22,284 nt of DNA, from the IMG/VR virus record IMGVR_UViG_3300042879_002359, positions 1 to 22,284 of that record; one strand, 5' to 3'. The notes under the pieces are model-generated. The model saw only the letters and a list, made by a program, of their open reading frames with translations. It did not search any database and was not told the DNA's origin. The position numbers were made by a program, and so were the translations under genes. Source of the DNA: a virus. Shown piece after piece: positions 2,242-22,284 of the stretch (the first letter of the stretch is position 1; every line of letters starts with the position of its first letter).

Positions 2242-2473
2242 AATATTCCTTTATCTCACGCCAATGATTACGCTCGGCATGATACAACAGACACCAATCA
2301 TCAATACAATTTTCGGGTGTCAATTCAAAATCTGGGCGTTTTGCTTCAATCATATGAGTAAACCATTGCACCCAAAATGCATCCAAAATCTCTTTATCTG
2401 ATAATGTTTCGTGGTGAACATATATTTCACCCAATGCATTATGATCAAGATAGGAAATAGACCAATATTTCAT
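2234..2473 (-). CDS. Hypothetical phage protein, 79 aa
   Basis: Trp/His/Tyr-rich soluble protein starting MKYWSISYLDHNALGEIYV. The frame is open for 11 more codons upstream, but the ATG at 2473 overlaps the stop of the lipoprotein gene as ATGA, the arrangement used by its neighbours, so I take it as the start. Later residues include CIDDWCLLYHAERNHW. No known motif; function unknown. Confidence 0.75.
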   Translation of the reverse strand: MKYWSISYLDHNALGEIYVHHETLSDKEILDAFWVQWFTHMIEAKRPDFELTPENCIDDWCLLYHAERNHWREIKEYYE

Positions 2474-2619
2474 TTCAGTGGCACTTTTTCTTTTGGACTC
2501 ATCCAATCACCAGCAGTCTGTAAATCTTTACCAGCACCAGTCAGTAGACCAGCAGTAGTATTACAGCCAGTCACGATAATGGACAAAGGCATCAAAAATA
2601 GTATAATCAATTTATTCAT
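2470..2619 (-). CDS. Entericidin-like lipoprotein, 49 aa
   Basis: Begins MNKLIILFLMPLSIIVTGC: a lipoprotein signal peptide with the lipobox V-T-G-C, so C19 should be lipid-modified, with Asn at +2. The mature part (CNTTAGLLTGAGKDLQTAGD) matches the shape of the entericidin A/B family, where a CNT...G.GKD.Q.AG core is typical. Entericidins are small cell-envelope lipoproteins of Proteobacteria; EcnB promotes lysis and EcnA acts as its antidote. A GGAG ribosome site lies close to the ATG, and the ends overlap both neighbours. In a phage it could aid lysis or block superinfection; both are inference. Confidence 0.75.
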   Translation of the reverse strand: MNKLIILFLMPLSIIVTGCNTTAGLLTGAGKDLQTAGDWMSPKEKVPLK

Positions 2620-3502: not shown

Positions 3503-3531
3503 ATTATATCAATACCGACAATCTTTGTCAA
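3503..3531 (-). promoter_or_regulatory. Consensus sigma-70 promoter
   Basis: A perfect TTGACA (3526-3531), a 17-base spacer and a perfect TATAAT (3503-3508), with an extended -10 TG (TGATATAAT), all on the minus strand. It drives the acidic protein at 3284-3472. This is one of the strongest-looking promoters in the window. Confidence 0.92.
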
Positions 3532-6199: not shown

Positions 6200-6386
6200 A
6201 TGCTTTATTCTTTGCTTCCTCTAGTGATGCAGCAATTACTTTTACCCATGCAGTATCACCTGATATACTCATATCATAAGGCACTGGTCCGTCAAACTCA
6301 AAACCCTCTGGTATGAATACTTGAACTTCATACTCGGTAAGATTTTTGATGCGATTCATAACAATATCAAATTCGGCTTGGCTCAT
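6171..6386 (-). CDS. Hypothetical phage protein, 71 aa, first gene after a promoter
   Basis: An acidic alpha/beta protein (MSQAEFDIVMNRIKNLTEYE ... ASLEEAKNKAYDFFESKYK). The frame is open up to 6407, but that region is the -10 box; an AGGAG site six bases before the ATG at 6386 fixes the start. Its promoter and first 20 bases lie inside the 3' end of the carboxypeptidase gene. The ending recalls small phage proteins that resemble a swapped-domain alpha/beta fold; no function assigned. Confidence 0.78.
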   Translation of the reverse strand: MSQAEFDIVMNRIKNLTEYEVQVFIPEGFEFDGPVPYDMSISGDTAWVKVIAASLEEAKNKAYDFFESKYK

Positions 6387-7233
6387 AATAATCTCCTTTG
6401 ATATCATTATACACTACTCTTTTTACAGTGTCAACTCTTTGTGCAGGATTTCGTGCGCCCATAACGACAATTGCCTCATAATATACATTATCACCTTTAC
6501 TCTTCTCTACCAATATGGCAACACAAAATCCTGCTGGGTTGGTAAAGCCCGTCTTACTTACCTGAACACCATCAATCTGTGACAAAATGGCAGTGTTCGT
6601 ATTATGTAGAACAACAATTCTATTTTTGCGTTTGACCTGTGTCAAAATTGCTGCACTTTTCTTGGTTGATATCTCACGAATGTCTGGATAATATGCAGAT
6701 GCAATTAACATTTGTGTTACATCAGATGCGGTGCTAACATTACCAGAACTCAAGCCAGATGGATCATCAAAGTGTGTGCTGAACATGCCCATCATCTCTG
6801 CACGAATATTCATATCACGGATAAATTTTTCACGACCACCAGGATAATCTGCTGCAAGTGTTTCTGCTGCTGCATTATCACTCTTTATCAATAACATATG
6901 AAACAATTCACCACGTGTATATTCACGTTTGGGCATACGACTGCCCGCTTTTGAACTCAAATACAATTTACGGTGCATGTCCATATTGTGATCTAGTGCC
7001 ACCATTGCAGTCATTAGCTTTGTCATACTAGCCAATGCACGAACTTGATCTATATTCTGACCACGAATCATAGAATTCTCTGTCACATTTGTTACCATAA
7101 TCGATAATGTGCCATATGTTTCAACTGCTTTTCTTTTCTCTGTGCGTGGCTTTGCATCTGCTGATTTGAATACCAAAAATACCAATAAAGAAAATAGTAC
7201 AACCCACTCTGTAAGTGTGAAATGTTTGTTCAT
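6367..7233 (-). CDS. Serine D-Ala-D-Ala carboxypeptidase (PBP5-like, family S11)
   Basis: A 288-residue secreted enzyme that would trim the terminal D-Ala of peptidoglycan pentapeptides in the periplasm. All three penicillin-binding motifs are present in order: S69-M-T-K72 (nucleophile and base), S118-D-N120 and K227-T-G229. Residues 9-27 form a hydrophobic signal segment ending ADA, a possible cleavage site. Length fits the catalytic domain alone; the C-terminal beta domain and membrane-binding helix of bacterial PBP5 are missing. The last 22 codons also hold the promoter of the next gene. Phage peptidoglycan enzymes are usually lysins of other families, so an S11 enzyme is unusual. It may alter crosslinking before lysis or resist host envelope enzymes; both are inference. 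Confidence 0.92.
   Translation of the reverse strand: MNKHFTLTEWVVLFSLLVFLVFKSADAKPRTEKRKAVETYGTLSIMVTNVTENSMIRGQNIDQVRALASMTKLMTAMVALDHNMDMHRKLYLSSKAGSRMPKREYTRGELFHMLLIKSDNAAAETLAADYPGGREKFIRDMNIRAEMMGMFSTHFDDPSGLSSGNVSTASDVTQMLIASAYYPDIREISTKKSAAILTQVKRKNRIVVLHNTNTAILSQIDGVQVSKTGFTNPAGFCVAILVEKSKGDNVYYEAIVVMGARNPAQRVDTVKRVVYNDIKGDYYEPSRI
6406..6434 (-). promoter_or_regulatory. Consensus sigma-70 promoter inside a gene end
   Basis: TTGACA (6429-6434), a 17-base spacer and TATAAT (6406-6411) on the minus strand, all within the last codons of the carboxypeptidase gene. It drives the gene at 6171-6386 and probably the oxygenase and tRNAs after it. Confidence 0.9.
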
Positions 7234-7322
7234 TTAAGTATTGCTGTAAAAAGATATGGCAGAGCCATAGTTGTGAGTAATAGTACGATATAAATTAGAA
7301 GTTCTTTGTACATTTGATTCAT
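7230..7322 (-). CDS. Tiny one-helix membrane peptide, 30 aa
   Basis: A short polar start (MNQMYKE) is followed by a hydrophobic helix (LLIYIVLLLTTMALPYLF). A strong AAGGAG ribosome site precedes the ATG, and the stop overlaps the carboxypeptidase start as ATGA, so the two are probably translated together. The ribosome site lies in the loop of a small hairpin (7322-7339). Function unknown; it may be a membrane partner of the carboxypeptidase, which is only inference. Confidence 0.65.
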   Translation of the reverse strand: MNQMYKELLIYIVLLLTTMALPYLFTAILK

Positions 7323-7339
7323 CGCCGTCTCCTTGGCGA
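7322..7339 (-). promoter_or_regulatory. Hairpin presenting a Shine-Dalgarno
   Basis: A 5-base stem (TCGCC/GGCGA) encloses an 8-base loop, AAGGAGAC, that is the ribosome site of the 30-aa membrane peptide. The 3' arm reaches the A of the start codon. Such a loop may expose, or when bound hide, the site. Confidence 0.45.
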
Positions 7340-7346
7340 CAAATCA

Positions 7347-7592
7347 TTACTTCAATTCATCGCCTATTTGTTTGATTGTTTTTTCGTACCCTTCACAGAG
7401 TTCCAAATAATATTGTGCTTCATTCCATGCATGTAATAACTGAAATTTTGCCTCACTCAAAACATCGGCTAATGCCCTATACCTAGTTCTTGTGTTATCT
7501 GGCCCATTTTCAATGAGTGTTAGCAAAACGTCAATCTTGTCAATTACGCTAACATCATCAATATGGTCAAAGTCACTGTCATCTTCGGTCAT
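7347..7592 (-). CDS. Hypothetical helical phage protein, 81 aa
   Basis: An acidic N-terminus (MTEDDSDFDHIDDVSVIDKI) followed by helices (YRALADVLSEAKFQLLHAW ... YLELCEGYEKTIKQIGDE). Its ATG overlaps the stop of the upstream gene as ATGA. No membrane segment or known motif; function unknown. Confidence 0.75.
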   Translation of the reverse strand: MTEDDSDFDHIDDVSVIDKIDVLLTLIENGPDNTRTRYRALADVLSEAKFQLLHAWNEAQYYLELCEGYEKTIKQIGDELK

Positions 7593-7759
7593 TGTTCGCC
7601 TTTTTCAAGTAAATTGATTGCATCTTTGATAAATCTTATCTCTCTGTTAAGTGCATCTCTGGCTTCATGTATTTCCAATAACTTTGCCCTCAAGCGGTCT
7701 AACTCTGTGTTATCCACTTGAGGCTTTTGTTTCGGTATAAATGTATATATCTCTGCCAT
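7589..7759 (-). CDS. Small coiled-coil phage protein, 56 aa, probably leaderless mRNA
   Basis: The protein begins MAEIYTFIPKQKPQVDN and continues as a charged coiled coil (DRLRAKLLEIHEARDALNRE). The frame is open 12 codons further up, but those codons are the promoter itself. Only seven bases separate the TATAAT box from this ATG, so the transcript should start at or very near the A of the ATG. There is no room for a Shine-Dalgarno. The stop overlaps the next start as ATGA. Function unknown. Confidence 0.75.
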   Translation of the reverse strand: MAEIYTFIPKQKPQVDNTELDRLRAKLLEIHEARDALNREIRFIKDAINLLEKGEQ

Positions 7760-7766
7760 GTATAAG

Positions 7767-7795
7767 ATTATACTATTGAATGAAATAATTGTCAA
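7767..7795 (-). promoter_or_regulatory. Consensus sigma-70 promoter for a leaderless transcript
   Basis: TTGACA (7790-7795), a 17-base spacer and TATAAT (7767-7772) on the minus strand. The start codon at 7757-7759 is where +1 would be expected. The -35 box directly abuts the stop of the gene upstream. Confidence 0.9.
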
Positions 7796-8113: not shown

Positions 8114-8731
8114 TTAGAAGTCGTCTTTGACGTTAGGCTGTAGTTTCTTTTCTATGTATTCGCATAGCCAATGACCTAAAATCAAATGTGCTTCTTGTAT
8201 GCGTGGTGTGGATGTTGATGGTGCTGCGATATAATAATTGGCATAATCTTGCATGTATCTGGTTTTCAGTCCAGTAAATGCAACGTTGATTAGTCCACTT
8301 ATTTTACCATATTTCATTGCTTCAAGTATATTCTCTGATGTGCCTGATGTGGACAAATAGATTGCTACATCACCTGGTTTTGATAGTGCCTGTAGTTGGC
8401 GTGAGAATATATGTTTGTAACCTAAATCATTTGAAATTGCAGTGATAACAGAAGTATCAGTGTTCAATGCTATTGCAGCATATGGATCACTTTGTGTCAT
8501 GAAGTATGATACTAATTCACCAGCCAGATGTTGTGCCTCTGCTGCTGAACCACCATTACCCATGAAAAAGATTTTGTTGCCACGTTTCAATGCGTCTACA
8601 CATTCTTGTGCAGCCATTTCTAATTCATTGAGTGGTGAAGGTATTGTTGCTGATGCAAACTCTATTGTTTTTTGTTCCAACAGAGTATCAATGACCGATT
8701 TGGTCTGTTTCAAAGAATCAATAATGTTCAT
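8114..8731 (-). CDS. gmhA: Sedoheptulose-7-phosphate isomerase (GmhA)
   Basis: A 205-residue SIS-domain enzyme, normal length for GmhA, which converts sedoheptulose 7-phosphate to D-glycero-D-manno-heptose 7-phosphate, the first step toward LPS or capsule heptose. Visible motifs are GNGGSAAEAQHLAGELV (58-74), LSTSGTSENILEA (126-138) and STSTPRIQEAHLILGH (172-187). The E. coli active-site and zinc residues H61, E65, Q172 and H180 correspond to H68, E72, Q179 and H187, so it should be active. No other heptose genes are in the window; it may boost host heptose supply or feed a phage glycosylation pathway elsewhere. Confidence 0.93.
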   Translation of the reverse strand: MNIIDSLKQTKSVIDTLLEQKTIEFASATIPSPLNELEMAAQECVDALKRGNKIFFMGNGGSAAEAQHLAGELVSYFMTQSDPYAAIALNTDTSVITAISNDLGYKHIFSRQLQALSKPGDVAIYLSTSGTSENILEAMKYGKISGLINVAFTGLKTRYMQDYANYYIAAPSTSTPRIQEAHLILGHWLCEYIEKKLQPNVKDDF

Positions 8732-9779: not shown

Positions 9780-9955
9780 AGTGGCTCATCATCTTCATCG
9801 TCATGAAGGTCTTGATCATCAAAGTTTTCATCTTCAAGTATTAGGTACTCACCACAAAATGGGCAGTGAGTTGGATCACTTTCAGTATACATCTCATTGT
9901 ATGAAATGCTGAATTGTGACCCACAAGCTGAACATTCGTGCTGTAGCTTAATCAT
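9776..9955 (-). CDS. Zinc-ribbon protein with acidic tail, 59 aa
   Basis: Two CxxC pairs, C8-x2-C11 and C31-x2-C34 (HECSACGSQF and HCPFCGEYL), form a typical zinc ribbon. The last 19 residues are almost all acidic (DENFDDQDLHDDEDDEPL). Such proteins often contact RNA polymerase or DNA; the acidic tail could mimic nucleic acid. It is coupled to both neighbours (TAATG upstream, ATGA downstream). No specific family assigned. Confidence 0.75.
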   Translation of the reverse strand: MIKLQHECSACGSQFSISYNEMYTESDPTHCPFCGEYLILEDENFDDQDLHDDEDDEPL

Positions 9956-10410
9956 TAGTTACACCATGATTGTTTTGCTTCACCAAAGTATTCACGTGCA
10001 AAACCATTTTGAATCAATTGAGCACGTAGACTTTGACCATCTAGAATGATGTCTCCCAAAACACGACCACCAAACTTGTCCCACGAATAAAGAACCACTT
10101 GACGCTTAGTTGATTTGGCAACTGCTGCTGTGGTAAACTTTGTTGCGTTTTGTCCTCGTTGATCTTCACTTGGACATTGCGCTCGGAACCCCTTTTCAGG
10201 GGTATCAACTCCATAGATGCGAACTGCTAGTTCTGGTTTCAGTGGCTTTGGTAGAAATGGTGCTGCAATAACCACAGTATCACCATCATTTACACGCACG
10301 ATTTGTGCATCATACATTACACCCTCTGGCGTCTTTGCTTGTACTGGTAAGAACAAACAAAGAAAAACATAACCAACTGCAATGTAAAACTTTGTCATAA
10401 ACTTTTTCAT
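9955..10410 (-). CDS. Secreted staphylococcal-type nuclease (thermonuclease)
   Basis: A 151-residue SNase-fold enzyme with a signal peptide (hydrophobic residues about 8-22, ending PVQA, mature start about K26). Catalytic residues line up with S. aureus nuclease: D42 and D44 in VNDGDTVV, R64, D69 and E72 in VRIYGVDTPEKG, and R116 in FGGRVLGD. It would cut DNA or RNA in a Ca-dependent way in the periplasm or outside. C79 and C150 could form a disulfide. The start overlaps the upstream stop (ATGA). Possible roles are degrading competing phage DNA entering the periplasm, or recovering nucleotides and phosphate; both are inference. Confidence 0.92.
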   Translation of the reverse strand: MKKFMTKFYIAVGYVFLCLFLPVQAKTPEGVMYDAQIVRVNDGDTVVIAAPFLPKPLKPELAVRIYGVDTPEKGFRAQCPSEDQRGQNATKFTTAAVAKSTKRQVVLYSWDKFGGRVLGDIILDGQSLRAQLIQNGFAREYFGEAKQSWCN

Positions 10411-10868
10411 ATCATTTCCTTACAAATTAGATTGTAAACTTCATTTCTTGCTGTGTCGGGTGTTTCCATTTCAACTGAATAAGCACCGAATTCGTATGTT
10501 CCTCTGAATATCATGTTTTCCTCTGGGTCAACATACCATTCGTAGAAAATGTGCAGAATTGATTGTTTACAGTTTAGAACTCCGTAAGTATATATCTTGC
10601 TTACTTTGGTCTTTAAACCATCACTATAATATGGAGTTTTGTATGCGGTGATTGCGTGAAACTCATACATTTCTTTGTGGTTGTCGAACATTCCTTTTTC
10701 AAGATAGATATCCCACTCATCTCTTCCGACGCTGAGAATCCATTCTCTTTCAATAAAAGGAATTTTAGTTGTACCATCTTTTTGTTCGACAAAAGGTAGA
10801 CGGTATTCTGCGGATTGTACTGGTAGTGAAAACAGGACAGCCATGATAAAGGAAAATAGGTGTTTCAT
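10407..10868 (-). CDS. Secreted protein with Cys pair, surface-adhesin-E-like
   Basis: From the ATG at 10868 the protein (153 aa) starts with a signal peptide (MKHLFSFIMAVLFSLPVQSA) and continues as a strand-rich domain with two cysteines in LNCKQS and LICKEM that probably pair. The order, W..V....DIY, a YTYGVLNC block, a strand pair and a C-terminal helix with Cys, resembles the small surface-adhesin E family, but I rate that match as tentative. AGGGGAG supports the start. The ribosome site and ATG lie in a hairpin loop (10854-10892). It is paired with the secreted nuclease by ATGA overlap, so the two may act together. Confidence 0.75.
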   Translation of the reverse strand: MKHLFSFIMAVLFSLPVQSAEYRLPFVEQKDGTTKIPFIEREWILSVGRDEWDIYLEKGMFDNHKEMYEFHAITAYKTPYYSDGLKTKVSKIYTYGVLNCKQSILHIFYEWYVDPEENMIFRGTYEFGAYSVEMETPDTARNEVYNLICKEMI

Positions 10869-10892
10869 GATACTCCCCTGAAACACCTATTT
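10854..10892 (-). promoter_or_regulatory. 13-bp hairpin enclosing the ribosome site and start codon
   Basis: Perfect 13-base arms (AAATAGGTGTTTC and its complement) flank a 13-base loop that holds AGGGGAG and the first two bases of the ATG at 10868. In the minus-strand RNA the stem is followed by TTCCTTT, so it may end part of the porin transcript, control translation of the secreted-protein gene, or both. Confidence 0.7.
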
Positions 10893-10904
10893 AGACTACT
10901 TTTA

Positions 10905-12311
10905 TTAGAAACTCAGTTGACCTCTGAGCATTACTGCTTTATCACCGTTTACACGACTGCCTGCTGCACCAACAGGTGCGTCAAACTTAGTGTCCACATA
11001 GTTTAGCATGAAACGTAGATTATCATTGGCAAACCATGTAATGCCATATGTCAGTGACGTTGCTTTGTTTGTCTTGCCTGCGACCACTGCAATATCATCG
11101 GCATTGAACTCACTTGCACGTACACCAACTTGCCATGCACCCTTGCCACCTTTATCAACTGGATTGCTTGGCTTTACCCAACCGAATACACCATCTTTGT
11201 AACTATGGTTTTCACCCGTCAGATTGTACATTGCTTGAATGTAATAACCATCAATCTTTTGATCAGCACCTTTCGCAGGATCATATGTGAATTGAAACTG
11301 TTCACCTTGTAGTTTCAATGCTTTATATGAGTATGCTGCTTCAAGACCTTGGCGTGTACGATTTGTATCTCCACTCAATGTAGGACCTGTAAAGTATGCA
11401 CTTTGTTGGCGACTTTCTGTACGACCACTTGCTGGTGCTACGCCACCTCTAATGTCACCTACACTGTATGCTGCACCAAGATGCATTACTGTGTCTTTGA
11501 TCATAGCAAGTTCAGCAAAGTTTACTGTTGCACGACCAATTACATCAGTACCGTCCGCTGTGGCGCTCTTATTTCCTCGTCCACGACTGAGAGCCACGGC
11601 ATATGTAAAACCAGTTTTAGGCACACCATGTATCATCACTCCTGTTTCTTTCGCAGGTATAAATTCACCTTCTGTTTGACCAATCAAACTGCGTTCCATA
11701 AAGTCAAGATTGTTTGAACTGGTCAACTGCTCAAGACTAAATGGCATTTTGAACAAACCAAATTGAAACTGCATTTCAGGATTGGCTGCATAGTTTACCC
11801 ACATTTCATCCATAGTAGATGATGTTGATGCTGCACCTGTATCATTACCAAAGTTTGCTAATAGAAGATATTTGAAGTCTTTTGCAAATTGACCACGAAC
11901 ACCAAATCTTGCACGACGTACTTCTAAGCCATCTTGATACGTATCTGTGCTTTGACCTTTGGCATAGTCTGGTGTATAAGTTCGGTAGTCCATATGAAGT
12001 CTACCTGTAAATTGGGCAGTCGTGTTACCGTCTTTAGATTTGATTCCAAGTCCATTGCCCATGACTCCACCATCATCTTGTCTTGCAATTCTCCATTTGT
12101 TTGATTCACTAACATCTCTGTCAATTCTTTGTTCAACAAATTTTTTATTTTCTTCTTTATCCTCATATTCTTTGATTTTAGTTTCATACTCTTGTTGAGT
12201 AAGAATACCTTTGTCTCTCAGAATACTCAGAGTTTCTTTGTGACTATCAGCATATGCTGGAATTACTGTCGTAAGTGCAACAACAATAGCAAGTTTCTTA
12301 AATAATTTCAT
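10905..12311 (-). CDS. Phosphate-selective porin (OprO/OprP type)
   Basis: A 468-residue outer-membrane beta-barrel of the phosphate-selective porin O/P family, which binds and passes phosphate or polyphosphate. It starts with a signal peptide (MKLFKKLAIVVALTTVIPAYA), then a helical coiled region (LSILRDKGILTQQEYETKI), then alternating barrel strands, and ends with an aromatic residue (LRGQLSF) as outer-membrane proteins do. Family-typical segments are RRARFGVRGQFAKDFKY and FGLFKMPFSLEQLTSSNNLDFMERS. Full length. It lies nine bases after pstS with its own AAGGA ribosome site, so both are probably one operon under the Pho-like element. A porin gene in a phage is rare. Confidence 0.93.
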   Translation of the reverse strand: MKLFKKLAIVVALTTVIPAYADSHKETLSILRDKGILTQQEYETKIKEYEDKEENKKFVEQRIDRDVSESNKWRIARQDDGGVMGNGLGIKSKDGNTTAQFTGRLHMDYRTYTPDYAKGQSTDTYQDGLEVRRARFGVRGQFAKDFKYLLLANFGNDTGAASTSSTMDEMWVNYAANPEMQFQFGLFKMPFSLEQLTSSNNLDFMERSLIGQTEGEFIPAKETGVMIHGVPKTGFTYAVALSRGRGNKSATADGTDVIGRATVNFAELAMIKDTVMHLGAAYSVGDIRGGVAPASGRTESRQQSAYFTGPTLSGDTNRTRQGLEAAYSYKALKLQGEQFQFTYDPAKGADQKIDGYYIQAMYNLTGENHSYKDGVFGWVKPSNPVDKGGKGAWQVGVRASEFNADDIAVVAGKTNKATSLTYGITWFANDNLRFMLNYVDTKFDAPVGAAGSRVNGDKAVMLRGQLSF

Positions 12312-12320
12312 GATTTATCC

Positions 12321-13343
12321 TTATTTCCAAATTGTGTTACCATCAGGACCTTTTAGATCCTTTTTCCAGTTATCTTGTACTAACTTGATAACTGATTGAG
12401 GCATGTGTACATACTCCAAATCCTCACTCATCTTTGCACCGTTCTTGTAACTCCAATCAAAGAATTTAAGAATTGCTTTGCCTGTTAGTGCATCGGTTTG
12501 TTGCTTGTGCATTAAAATAAAACTTGCGCCAGTTGCAGGCCATGCATCTTTACCGGTTTGGTATGTCAGTAACAAATACATGCCTGGTGCATTTGCCCAG
12601 TCTGCATTTGCTGCTGCTGCTTTGAATGTATTATCGTCTGGTTGTACAAAATTGCCATCACGATTCTTCAATTGTGCCCATGCAATTTTATTTTTCTTTG
12701 CGTATGCATATTCAACATAACCAAATGCGCCTTTTACACGTTGAACATTTGCTGCAACACCTTCATTACCTTTACCACCAATACCTGTAGGCCATTTCAC
12801 TGCTGTGCCTTCACCAACTGTTTTTGCAAAATCTGGATTTGCTTTGCTCAGATAGTTTGTCCAAATGAATGTTGTACCAGAACCATCTGCACGATGAATT
12901 ACAGTGATATTCAATGCTGGTAAATTTACACCAGGATTCAAATCAGTGATTGCTTTGTCATTCCACTTTGTAATTTTACCAAGATGAATACCTGCAACAA
13001 CATCACTCGTCAACTTTAATTGACCTGGTGCAACACCTTCAAGATTTATAACTGGTACTACACCACCAATGATTGCAGGAAATTGCATTAGACCTTCTTT
13101 GTCTAATTCTTCCGGCTTCAATGGCATATCACTTGCACCAAAGTCAACTGTCTTTGCTTTGATTTGACGGATACCGCCACCCGATCCGATTGATTGATAA
13201 TTGAGTCCTATGCCTGTTGCTGATTTGTATGCTTCAGCCCATTTTGCATAGATTGGATATGGAAATGTCGCACCAGCACCGGTTAAATCTGCTGCTGATG
13301 CGACACCTGTGAATAGTAACAACGATAATAATAGATTCTTCAT
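12321..13343 (-). CDS. pstS: Periplasmic phosphate-binding protein PstS
   Basis: A 340-residue PstS, the high-affinity phosphate receptor of the PstSCAB ABC transporter. The signal peptide is MKNLLLSLLLFTGVASA, and the mature part opens with ADLTGAGATFPYPIYAKW. The family's phosphate-contacting signatures are visible: GAGATFP, IGSGGGIRQI, FGASDMPL and HRADGSGTTFIWTNYL. The frame extends to 13382, but AGGAG before the ATG at 13343 and the signal peptide fix the start. Upstream are a candidate promoter, a 7-base hairpin and a Pho-box-like repeat. The transporter membrane subunits are not in the window, so it would serve the host's PstCAB. pstS is known from cyanophages; here it is next to a porin. 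Confidence 0.96.
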   Translation of the reverse strand: MKNLLLSLLLFTGVASAADLTGAGATFPYPIYAKWAEAYKSATGIGLNYQSIGSGGGIRQIKAKTVDFGASDMPLKPEELDKEGLMQFPAIIGGVVPVINLEGVAPGQLKLTSDVVAGIHLGKITKWNDKAITDLNPGVNLPALNITVIHRADGSGTTFIWTNYLSKANPDFAKTVGEGTAVKWPTGIGGKGNEGVAANVQRVKGAFGYVEYAYAKKNKIAWAQLKNRDGNFVQPDDNTFKAAAANADWANAPGMYLLLTYQTGKDAWPATGASFILMHKQQTDALTGKAILKFFDWSYKNGAKMSEDLEYVHMPQSVIKLVQDNWKKDLKGPDGNTIWK

Positions 13344-13359
13344 AATATCTCCTATAGGA

Positions 13360-13377
13360 ATTGTGCGATTGCACAAT
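13360..13377. repeat. 7-bp inverted repeat in the pstS leader
   Basis: ATTGTGC and GCACAAT form perfect 7-base arms with a 4-base loop, about 17 bases before the pstS start. It overlaps the proposed -10 box and the start of the RNA. It could be an operator or a 5' stabilising hairpin. Confidence 0.5.
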
Positions 13378-13401
13378 ATCACACTTATCTATTTTTTTCA
13401 A
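13373..13401 (-). promoter_or_regulatory. Candidate pstS promoter
   Basis: TTGAAA (13396-13401), 17 bases, and TATTGT (13373-13378) on the minus strand. Both boxes are weaker than in the other promoters, which fits an activator-dependent promoter. The Pho-box-like repeat ends 15 bases upstream. Confidence 0.55.
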
Positions 13402-21111: not shown

Positions 21112-21140
21112 ATTATATCAGTGTTTCTCAAGTGTGTCAA
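21112..21140 (-). promoter_or_regulatory. Consensus sigma-70 promoter of the primase unit
   Basis: TTGACA (21135-21140), a 17-base spacer and TATAAT (21112-21117) with extended -10 TG (TGATATAAT), all on the minus strand. The primase ATG is at 21103-21105, six bases after the -10 box, so the leader would be zero to a few bases. Confidence 0.92.
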
Positions 21141-21569: not shown

Positions 21570-21766
21570 TATTTCTTCTCTGGAATCTTTGTTCCTTCTA
21601 GTTTTTTGTGTACTTTGATCGTCTTGCATACTTCTTTTTCTTTTTTAGTCTTATTGTCAAATTCTTTGACACATACTTTTTTCTCTTCAGCAGCAAAAGC
21701 GGCATTTGTCAGAGGAGCAAACAACAGGAATAAAACCATTCCTAAGACGGCAAATTCTTTTTTCAT
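21569..21766 (-). CDS. Small secreted Cys-pair peptide, 65 aa
   Basis: A signal peptide (MKKEFAVLGMVLFLLFAPL...NAAFA) is followed by a basic mature peptide of about 40 residues with two cysteines (KVCVKEFDNKTKKEKEVCK) that could form a disulfide loop in the periplasm. It shares overlaps with both neighbours (ATGA upstream, TAATG downstream). A role beside the membrane proteins around it, for example in lysis, is possible but unproved. Confidence 0.78.
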   Translation of the reverse strand: MKKEFAVLGMVLFLLFAPLTNAAFAAEEKKVCVKEFDNKTKKEKEVCKTIKVHKKLEGTKIPEKK

Positions 21767-21990
21767 TTCTTTTCCTTTGATATAAATTTTTCTGATGCCG
21801 TAAAGCCCAAACCACCAAGGACGATATACATTATAGCATCAAACGTTTGTGGATTCAATTTCTTTTCATAAAACACTTCGGCAATAAATCCAATAGCAAG
21901 AAGAATGAATGCCAAAAGGGTAATCACTCTCTTGCTACTGGGATTGTTTTCACCCTCACCAGACAACATCTTGACGATGAAATTTATCAT
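21763..21990 (-). CDS. Two-helix membrane protein, holin-like, 75 aa
   Basis: An amphipathic start (MINFIVKMLSGEGENNPSSK) is followed by two membrane helices at about residues 23-39 (VITLLAFILLAIGFIAEV) and 50-64 (FDAIMYIVLGGLGFTA), and a basic tail (SEKFISKEKK). The pattern S-S-x-R before helix 1 and a short loop between the helices resembles small phage holin-like proteins. Class II holins have two helices, so a holin is possible; a structural membrane role cannot be excluded. Confidence 0.75.
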   Translation of the reverse strand: MINFIVKMLSGEGENNPSSKRVITLLAFILLAIGFIAEVFYEKKLNPQTFDAIMYIVLGGLGFTASEKFISKEKK

Positions 21991-22284
21991 AGTTCAGGAT
22001 GATCTGGTTGTTTAGGTGCTTCTTTACCACCAAAGCCTGCTTCTACTGATGGTGCAAATGCTGCTACTGCTGCAACTGGTGCTGCAAACGTTTCTGCACT
22101 GCTAGTTGAAAACGATGCACTAAAACCGCCACTTGGTGGTAACGATGGTGGTGCTGGTGGTGGTGTATAAGGCTTATTTGCAGCATCAAGTGCTTTTGCT
22201 CTCAAGTCTTTGTCATCACCTGCTAACATGATACCTGATAATGTACCTGTCAAGAATGTAGCAATAGGAATAATTAGTTCAAAG
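21987..22284 (-). CDS. Pro/Ala-rich membrane-anchored protein, 5' end outside the window
   Basis: The frame is open to the right edge, so the start is not in the window. The visible N-terminal part (FELIIPIATFLTGTLSGIML) is a membrane segment, followed by a charged stretch (GDDKDLRAKALDAANKPYT), a Pro run (PPPAPPSLPPS) and an Ala-rich, low-complexity end. A TTG at 22253 could be called as start, but it would cut the membrane helix. The stop overlaps the holin-like gene as ATGA. It looks like an anchor plus a flexible linker; function unknown. Confidence 0.72.
   Translation of the reverse strand, partial: FELIIPIATFLTGTLSGIMLAGDDKDLRAKALDAANKPYTPPPAPPSLPPSGGFSASFSTSSAETFAAPVAAVAAFAPSVEAGFGGKEAPKQPDHPEL

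Follow-up and report, generated by a model that had tools for sequence, protein, structure and literature searches.

Phage enzymes that act on the bacterial wall are usually read as lysins or as entry enzymes. The DNA analyzed here, a window of 22,284 nt from an IMG/VR virus record, carries on its minus strand a gene for a predicted secreted peptidase of the penicillin-binding type (family S11), which raises the question of whether such an enzyme serves to burst the host or to alter the wall of a host that is still alive.

Family assignment and predicted export

The open reading frame at 6367-7233 (-) starts with ATG and encodes 288 aa, which match the Pfam family Peptidase_S11 (PF00768) with E=9.3e-35 and 120.7 bits, against a gathering cut-off of 27.6. 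The motifs follow one another in the order SxxK, SxN and KTG: S69-M-T-K72 (7018-7029, -), in which S69 is the predicted nucleophile, S118-D-N120 (6874-6882, -) and K227-T-G229 (6547-6555, -). S69, K72, S118, N120 and K227-T228-G229 are unchanged in all 51 viral homologues aligned, and D119 is conserved in at least 90%. The N-terminus (residues 1-27; 7153-7233, -) forms a hydrophobic helix (residues 7-24) and ends in a predicted signal peptidase I site between A-D-A and K. An A-x-A-like end is found in nearly all S11 relatives, and textbook signal peptides occur in the distant ones. These elements, the three motifs and the signal segment, had been recognized in the sequence-only reading and all proved intact. 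Such an N-terminus would direct the protein into the periplasm.

Judged from its sequence and a fold model, the protein is closest to PBP7/PbpG, of the D,D-endopeptidase type, rather than to the carboxypeptidase PBP5. The top NCBIfam model was the PbpG endopeptidase PRK11669 (1.6e-46, 158.9 bits; next model 59.2), which was matched by 51 of the 51 viral members. The top PDB sequence matches were 6azi and 6muq, and both were also the top PDB folds found by Foldseek with the AF2 model of the 288 residues (pLDDT 87), which has the penicillin-binding D,D-peptidase fold. The NCBIfam cut-off for class A beta-lactamases was missed (18.8 bits vs 200). The curated NCBIfam PbpG equivalog cut-off (294 bits) was missed as well, at 158.9 bits, and the midcell-targeting C-terminal helix of E. 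coli PBP7 is absent, the phage protein stopping earlier in the alignment with an Escherichia PbpG. For these two reasons the protein is called PBP7-like and not PbpG.

The C-terminal membrane-binding domain of PBP5 had been described as missing. It is indeed absent from the AF2 model and the alignment, in which the chain stops ~60 residues past KTG, but this does not reflect a loss. To our knowledge, PBP7 never carries a PBP5-type C-terminal domain, so its absence here is expected and needs no special explanation. A PBP5-type enzyme with a lost domain was ruled out, because the top NCBIfam model, PDB sequences and folds were all those of PBP7.

The earlier label of carboxypeptidase therefore fits less well than that of a PBP7/PbpG-type D,D-endopeptidase. 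Both the activity of the protein and its endopeptidase specificity are predictions. E. coli PBP7 has been described as endopeptidase-only, whereas A. baumannii PBP7 is also a carboxypeptidase (PMC13059705), and specificity is for this reason not readable from sequence. It is quite unlikely, however, that the phage protein acts as a D,D-carboxypeptidase that trims pentapeptides and so reduces later crosslinking or alters the wall against superinfecting phages. Superinfection exclusion would suit early expression, and some PBP7 enzymes, such as that of A. baumannii, do carry out both reactions, but sequence and fold are nearer to PBP7 than to PBP5/PBP6.

Viral lineage and genomic neighborhood

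The window is syntenic over nearly its full length with a 172-kb contig, which encodes T4-type terminase, sheath, tube, portal, protease, capsid, polymerase and helicase. The carriers of the S11 gene are best explained as T4-like phages of one lineage that infect Gram-negative bacteria of aquatic habitats. Scans of IMG/VR for viral homologues, a search suggested by the sequence-only reading, confirmed at least 514 relatives, the best 80 of which are 42-94% identical. The gene belongs to a real phage, as had been supposed, and is not the only S11 gene in phages. The top bacterial match is ~41% identical among the matches listed. In a tree of 100 rows, the 46 viral and 54 bacterial homologues were parted by one branch (SH-aLRT 98), with the two most distant viral rows placed on a long branch. 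The dN/dS of S11 (0.07-0.17) points to purifying selection, and the gene stands immediately upstream of the neighboring oxygenase in 20/20 informative contigs, defined as those whose neighboring oxygenase is at least 57% identical. The tree split, the low dN/dS and the fixed synteny contradict the degraded host fragment for which the sequence-only reading had allowed, and rule out a contaminant one.

No close cultured relatives were found among 50,697 phage records (INPHARED) with four query proteins; the matches obtained were at most ~33% identical and mostly look like host contamination. The contigs CAKLQF020000007, CAKLQF020000026 and CAKLQH020000023, assigned to Acinetobacter phage MD-2021a, carry pbpG and dacD annotations and are likely bacterial contamination. 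Such matches might recall a host gene captured not long ago, or a misassembly of bacterial sequence, with no role in the phage. This explanation is, however, hardly credible for the window, given the depth of the viral clade, the selection on the gene, its fixed place on phage contigs and its distance from the bacterial matches listed.

Next to S11, a block of exported proteins occupies 9955-13382 (-). It consists of PstS (12321-13382), a phosphate-selective porin O/P (10905-12311), an exported protein to which no function was assigned (10407-10886) and a thermonuclease-like protein with a signal sequence (9955-10410). PstS matches many genomes, of Methylophilaceae and Burkholderiales type, at 55-64%, and so points to no single host. 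PstS, the porin and the nuclease have no match in a 146-kb relative and are perhaps a variable phosphate-scavenging set. A 49-aa lipoprotein-like ORF at 2470-2619 (-), entericidin-like and with the lipobox VTGC, is conserved in the 146-kb relative. A SIS-domain protein at 8114-8731 (-), possibly GmhA-like (lipopolysaccharide heptose), has no match in either the 172-kb or the 146-kb relative.

Early-type promoter, probably coupled micropeptide and separate lysis genes

A sigma-70 promoter, TTGACA-N17-TATAAT, lies at 7767-7795 (-), 562 nt before S11, and matches the consensus at 12/12 positions. It is followed by a gene of ~56 aa (7589-7759, -), the start of which was placed immediately downstream of the promoter (the mechanical ORF extends to 7795) and which has no match in PHROGs, and by a second gene of 81 aa (7347-7592, -), which is 79% identical in the 172-kb relative and for which no family was found in Pfam and further profile searches. 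In the subclade of the window, the promoter is found at -554 to -574 in 19 of 20 loci, the twentieth (L008) ending at 304 nt and being too short; at 11 loci of sister subclades it stands at -240/-243 or -35. A fixed place, in three spacings, is thus seen at 30 of 31 loci, and the remaining one ends too early. At these 30 loci TTGACA is perfect, the spacer is 17 nt and the second hexamer has 0-2 mismatches, so that some of the promoters differ from the consensus at two positions of that hexamer. As a control, 4% of random 700-nt stretches of the relative G001 hold a promoter site with at most one mismatch. At some sister-subclade loci, a distance of 35 nt between the promoter and the first ATG implies an mRNA with little or no leader. 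Three more perfect TTGACA-N17-TATAAT promoters were seen on the coding strand of the window, at 6406-6434, 3503-3531 and 21112-21140 (-); the first falls inside the 3'-terminal part of S11, and a 78-aa gene downstream would be transcribed from it.

T4-type late motifs, on the other hand, concentrate at structural genes and upstream of the lysis cassette (G001:9623 and 10663); in this lineage, only three loci have one less than 700 nt from S11. In place of the late promoter of a lysis gene, S11 has a sigma-70 early motif. A comparable reading of early and late motifs has been applied in a review of T4-like cyanophages (PMC2984593). By motif, the promoter is assigned to the early class, served by the host sigma-70 polymerase, and S11 would be expressed accordingly early. 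Nevertheless, transcription from a late motif that lies ~2.9 kb upstream in relatives (G001:23008) could extend into S11, and an early promoter need not mean an early protein, since the Shine-Dalgarno sequence of the next gene sits in a foldable hairpin.

This gene, at 7230-7322 (-), encodes a single-span membrane micropeptide of 30 aa, MNQMYKELLIYIVLLLTTMALPYLFTAILK, and is preceded by the Shine-Dalgarno sequence AAGGAG (7329-7334, -), conserved among relatives. Its stop codon and the start codon of S11 overlap in ATGA, and no Shine-Dalgarno sequence precedes the S11 ATG in the window; translational coupling of S11 to the micropeptide is therefore likely. A tiny coupled membrane peptide had already been noticed at this position, and the comparison with relatives gives it weight: 19 relatives sampled from the subclade have a micropeptide of 29-30 aa at this junction, ending in or beside the S11 start codon, and its dN/dS, mostly 0.05-0.27 (few sites; one pair 0.42), indicates purifying selection. 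Sister subclades (L009-L014, L020, L024, L119, L124-L126) have no micropeptide, and their S11 proteins share a conserved extension at the N-terminus, MNIKxKLLDIQYAIENWYNA..., which in one sister group takes its place.

Directly before the Shine-Dalgarno sequence, a hairpin A:B can form at 7335-7364 (-), with an MFE of -13.5 kcal/mol (z -3.3) and compensatory changes between lineages. In an alternative hairpin B:C (7322-7339, -; TCGCC-AAGGAGAC-GGCGA), which has the same layout and other sequences in relatives, the Shine-Dalgarno sequence lies in the loop. The two are mutually exclusive: A:B (6-13 pairs) frees the Shine-Dalgarno sequence, and B:C loops it. The arms co-vary between subclades (GGCGAT/GTCGCC, CAGTGGAC/GTCCACTG and others), and shuffle z-scores range from -1.7 to -5.7. 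The stems were read sequence by sequence, as the MAFFT alignment blurred the arms; B:C rests on reading the sequences, and a scripted search for it often chose other small helices. The two hairpins at 7322-7364 (-) are a possible translational switch. More tentatively, the enzyme and the coupled micropeptide may form one host-takeover module, in which the peptide would anchor, localize or regulate the enzyme or block a host wall synthase, sacculus crosslinking would be reprogrammed, and the output would be set by the two-state hairpin.

A dedicated lysis cassette was found elsewhere in the two large relatives (146 and 172 kb). It comprises a GH19-like endolysin (phrog_181, 7.6e-76), an Rz-like i-spanin and an Rz1/LysC-like o-spanin, and its neighbors are membrane proteins, among which the holin may be found; no holin family was matched among the lysis-cassette genes of these two relatives. 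Among the other lysin families scanned, which included M15, GH24 gave matches only within very large open frames, and the GH108 scan returned zero matches, controls included, and is hence uninformative. In G001, S11 lies on the same strand as the cassette and ~13 kb from it, and so is not co-located with spanin or lysin genes. The window ends inside the cassette region: membrane-protein genes that adjoin the cassette are cut by the contig edge at 21763-22253 (-), syntenic with G001:12450-13147, and this synteny suggests that the phage of the window has a cassette of its own. For the lineage, S11 as the only lysin was ruled out by the dedicated cassette in both large relatives.

Proposed role and comparison with known systems

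The early promoter and the separate late lysis cassette together indicate that S11 probably acts on the wall of the living host and does not burst it, which agrees with the remodeling proposed from sequence alone. E. coli PBP7 has been described as a space-making enzyme, its C-terminal helix being required for midcell localization (PMC11586513), and the title of Hara et al. 1996, cited in PMC9238320, states that the growth defect of an spr mutation is suppressed when PBP7 is overproduced. From the endopeptidase and space-making properties of E. coli PBP7 and the suppression of spr, early crosslink cleavage follows as the most likely role of S11. In the proposed mechanism, a four-gene operon would be transcribed early by the host sigma-70 RNA polymerase, translation of S11 would be coupled to the 30-aa membrane micropeptide, and the exported enzyme would most likely cut D-Ala-mDAP crosslinks of the host's sacculus, making space or loosening the wall as PBP7 does, while lysis would be left to the GH19-like endolysin and spanins of the late cassette. 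Taken as a whole, this account of an exported PBP7-like enzyme is favored with moderate confidence. The benefit to the phage may lie in sustained growth or swelling, in superinfection exclusion or in preparation of lysis.

An accessory role in lysis itself also has to be considered, in which a periplasmic enzyme made early or continuously would thin the crosslinks so that lysis by the later endolysin and spanins becomes quicker or more complete. Cut crosslinks would aid lysis, the lysozyme e of T4 (a lysin) and gp67 of Melnitz (a proposed lysin) have been described as controlled by early promoters (PMC9004378), and the hairpin at the Shine-Dalgarno sequence could delay translation. Even so, this role appears unlikely: S11 stands outside a cassette that looks complete, its own sigma-70 promoter keeps a fixed place, T4-type late motifs are rare near it, and a sister subclade with the promoter directly at S11 has no such hairpin. 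An entry enzyme carried in the virion has a precedent of sorts in phage S-SCSM1, in which a protein annotated as D-Ala-D-Ala carboxypeptidase was detected among virion-associated proteins (PMC9602691). The signal sequence, the early promoter and the location outside the structural genes make it very improbable here.

The favored reading, cleavage of crosslinks in the living wall, has consequences beyond this locus. A widespread virus-specific PBP7-like clade that has early promoters and stands beside an intact set of lysis genes suggests that the wall of the host is managed by some phages while infection is in progress. The S11 fold is ordinary; what is unusual is a phage wall enzyme that is conserved, early and not a lysin, together with a coupled micropeptide. 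The lineage offers a direct test of its purpose, be it growth, swelling, superinfection exclusion or lysis timing.

S11 genes in phages are already known from automatic 'carboxypeptidase' annotations and mentions in papers, and paper searches found no functional study of a phage pbpG or S11. ORF110 of Limnohabitans phage DC31 and ORF7 of DSL-LC01 are known as D-Ala-D-Ala carboxypeptidases from annotation alone; such labels may conceal endopeptidases. The DacC/S11 entries of uncultured Caudovirales in BFVD, which bear the same label and are likewise known from annotation, have the same fold as the phage protein and are 25-31% identical over the match. As a precedent for the micropeptide idea only, Gp11 of the S. 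aureus phage PhiNM1 (PMC11237401) is a small membrane protein of early infection and is directed against peptidoglycan synthesis; it acts in another host, and no relationship is claimed. PBP5/DacA, PBP6 and DacD share the superfamily fold and motifs, but the phage S11 lacks their C-terminal membrane-binding domain and scores far lower with their models (33.8-59 bits). Summarizing, the nearest known system is PBP7/PbpG (E. coli; E. cloacae 6azi; Y. enterocolitica 6muq; MEROPS S11), with which the phage protein has in common the fold, the motifs, the periplasmic signal and the lack of a PBP5-type C-terminal domain. It differs from PBP7/PbpG in being ~36% identical and under the curated PbpG cut-off, in having fewer residues ahead of the SxN motif and at the C-terminal end, and in being encoded in an early operon with a micropeptide.
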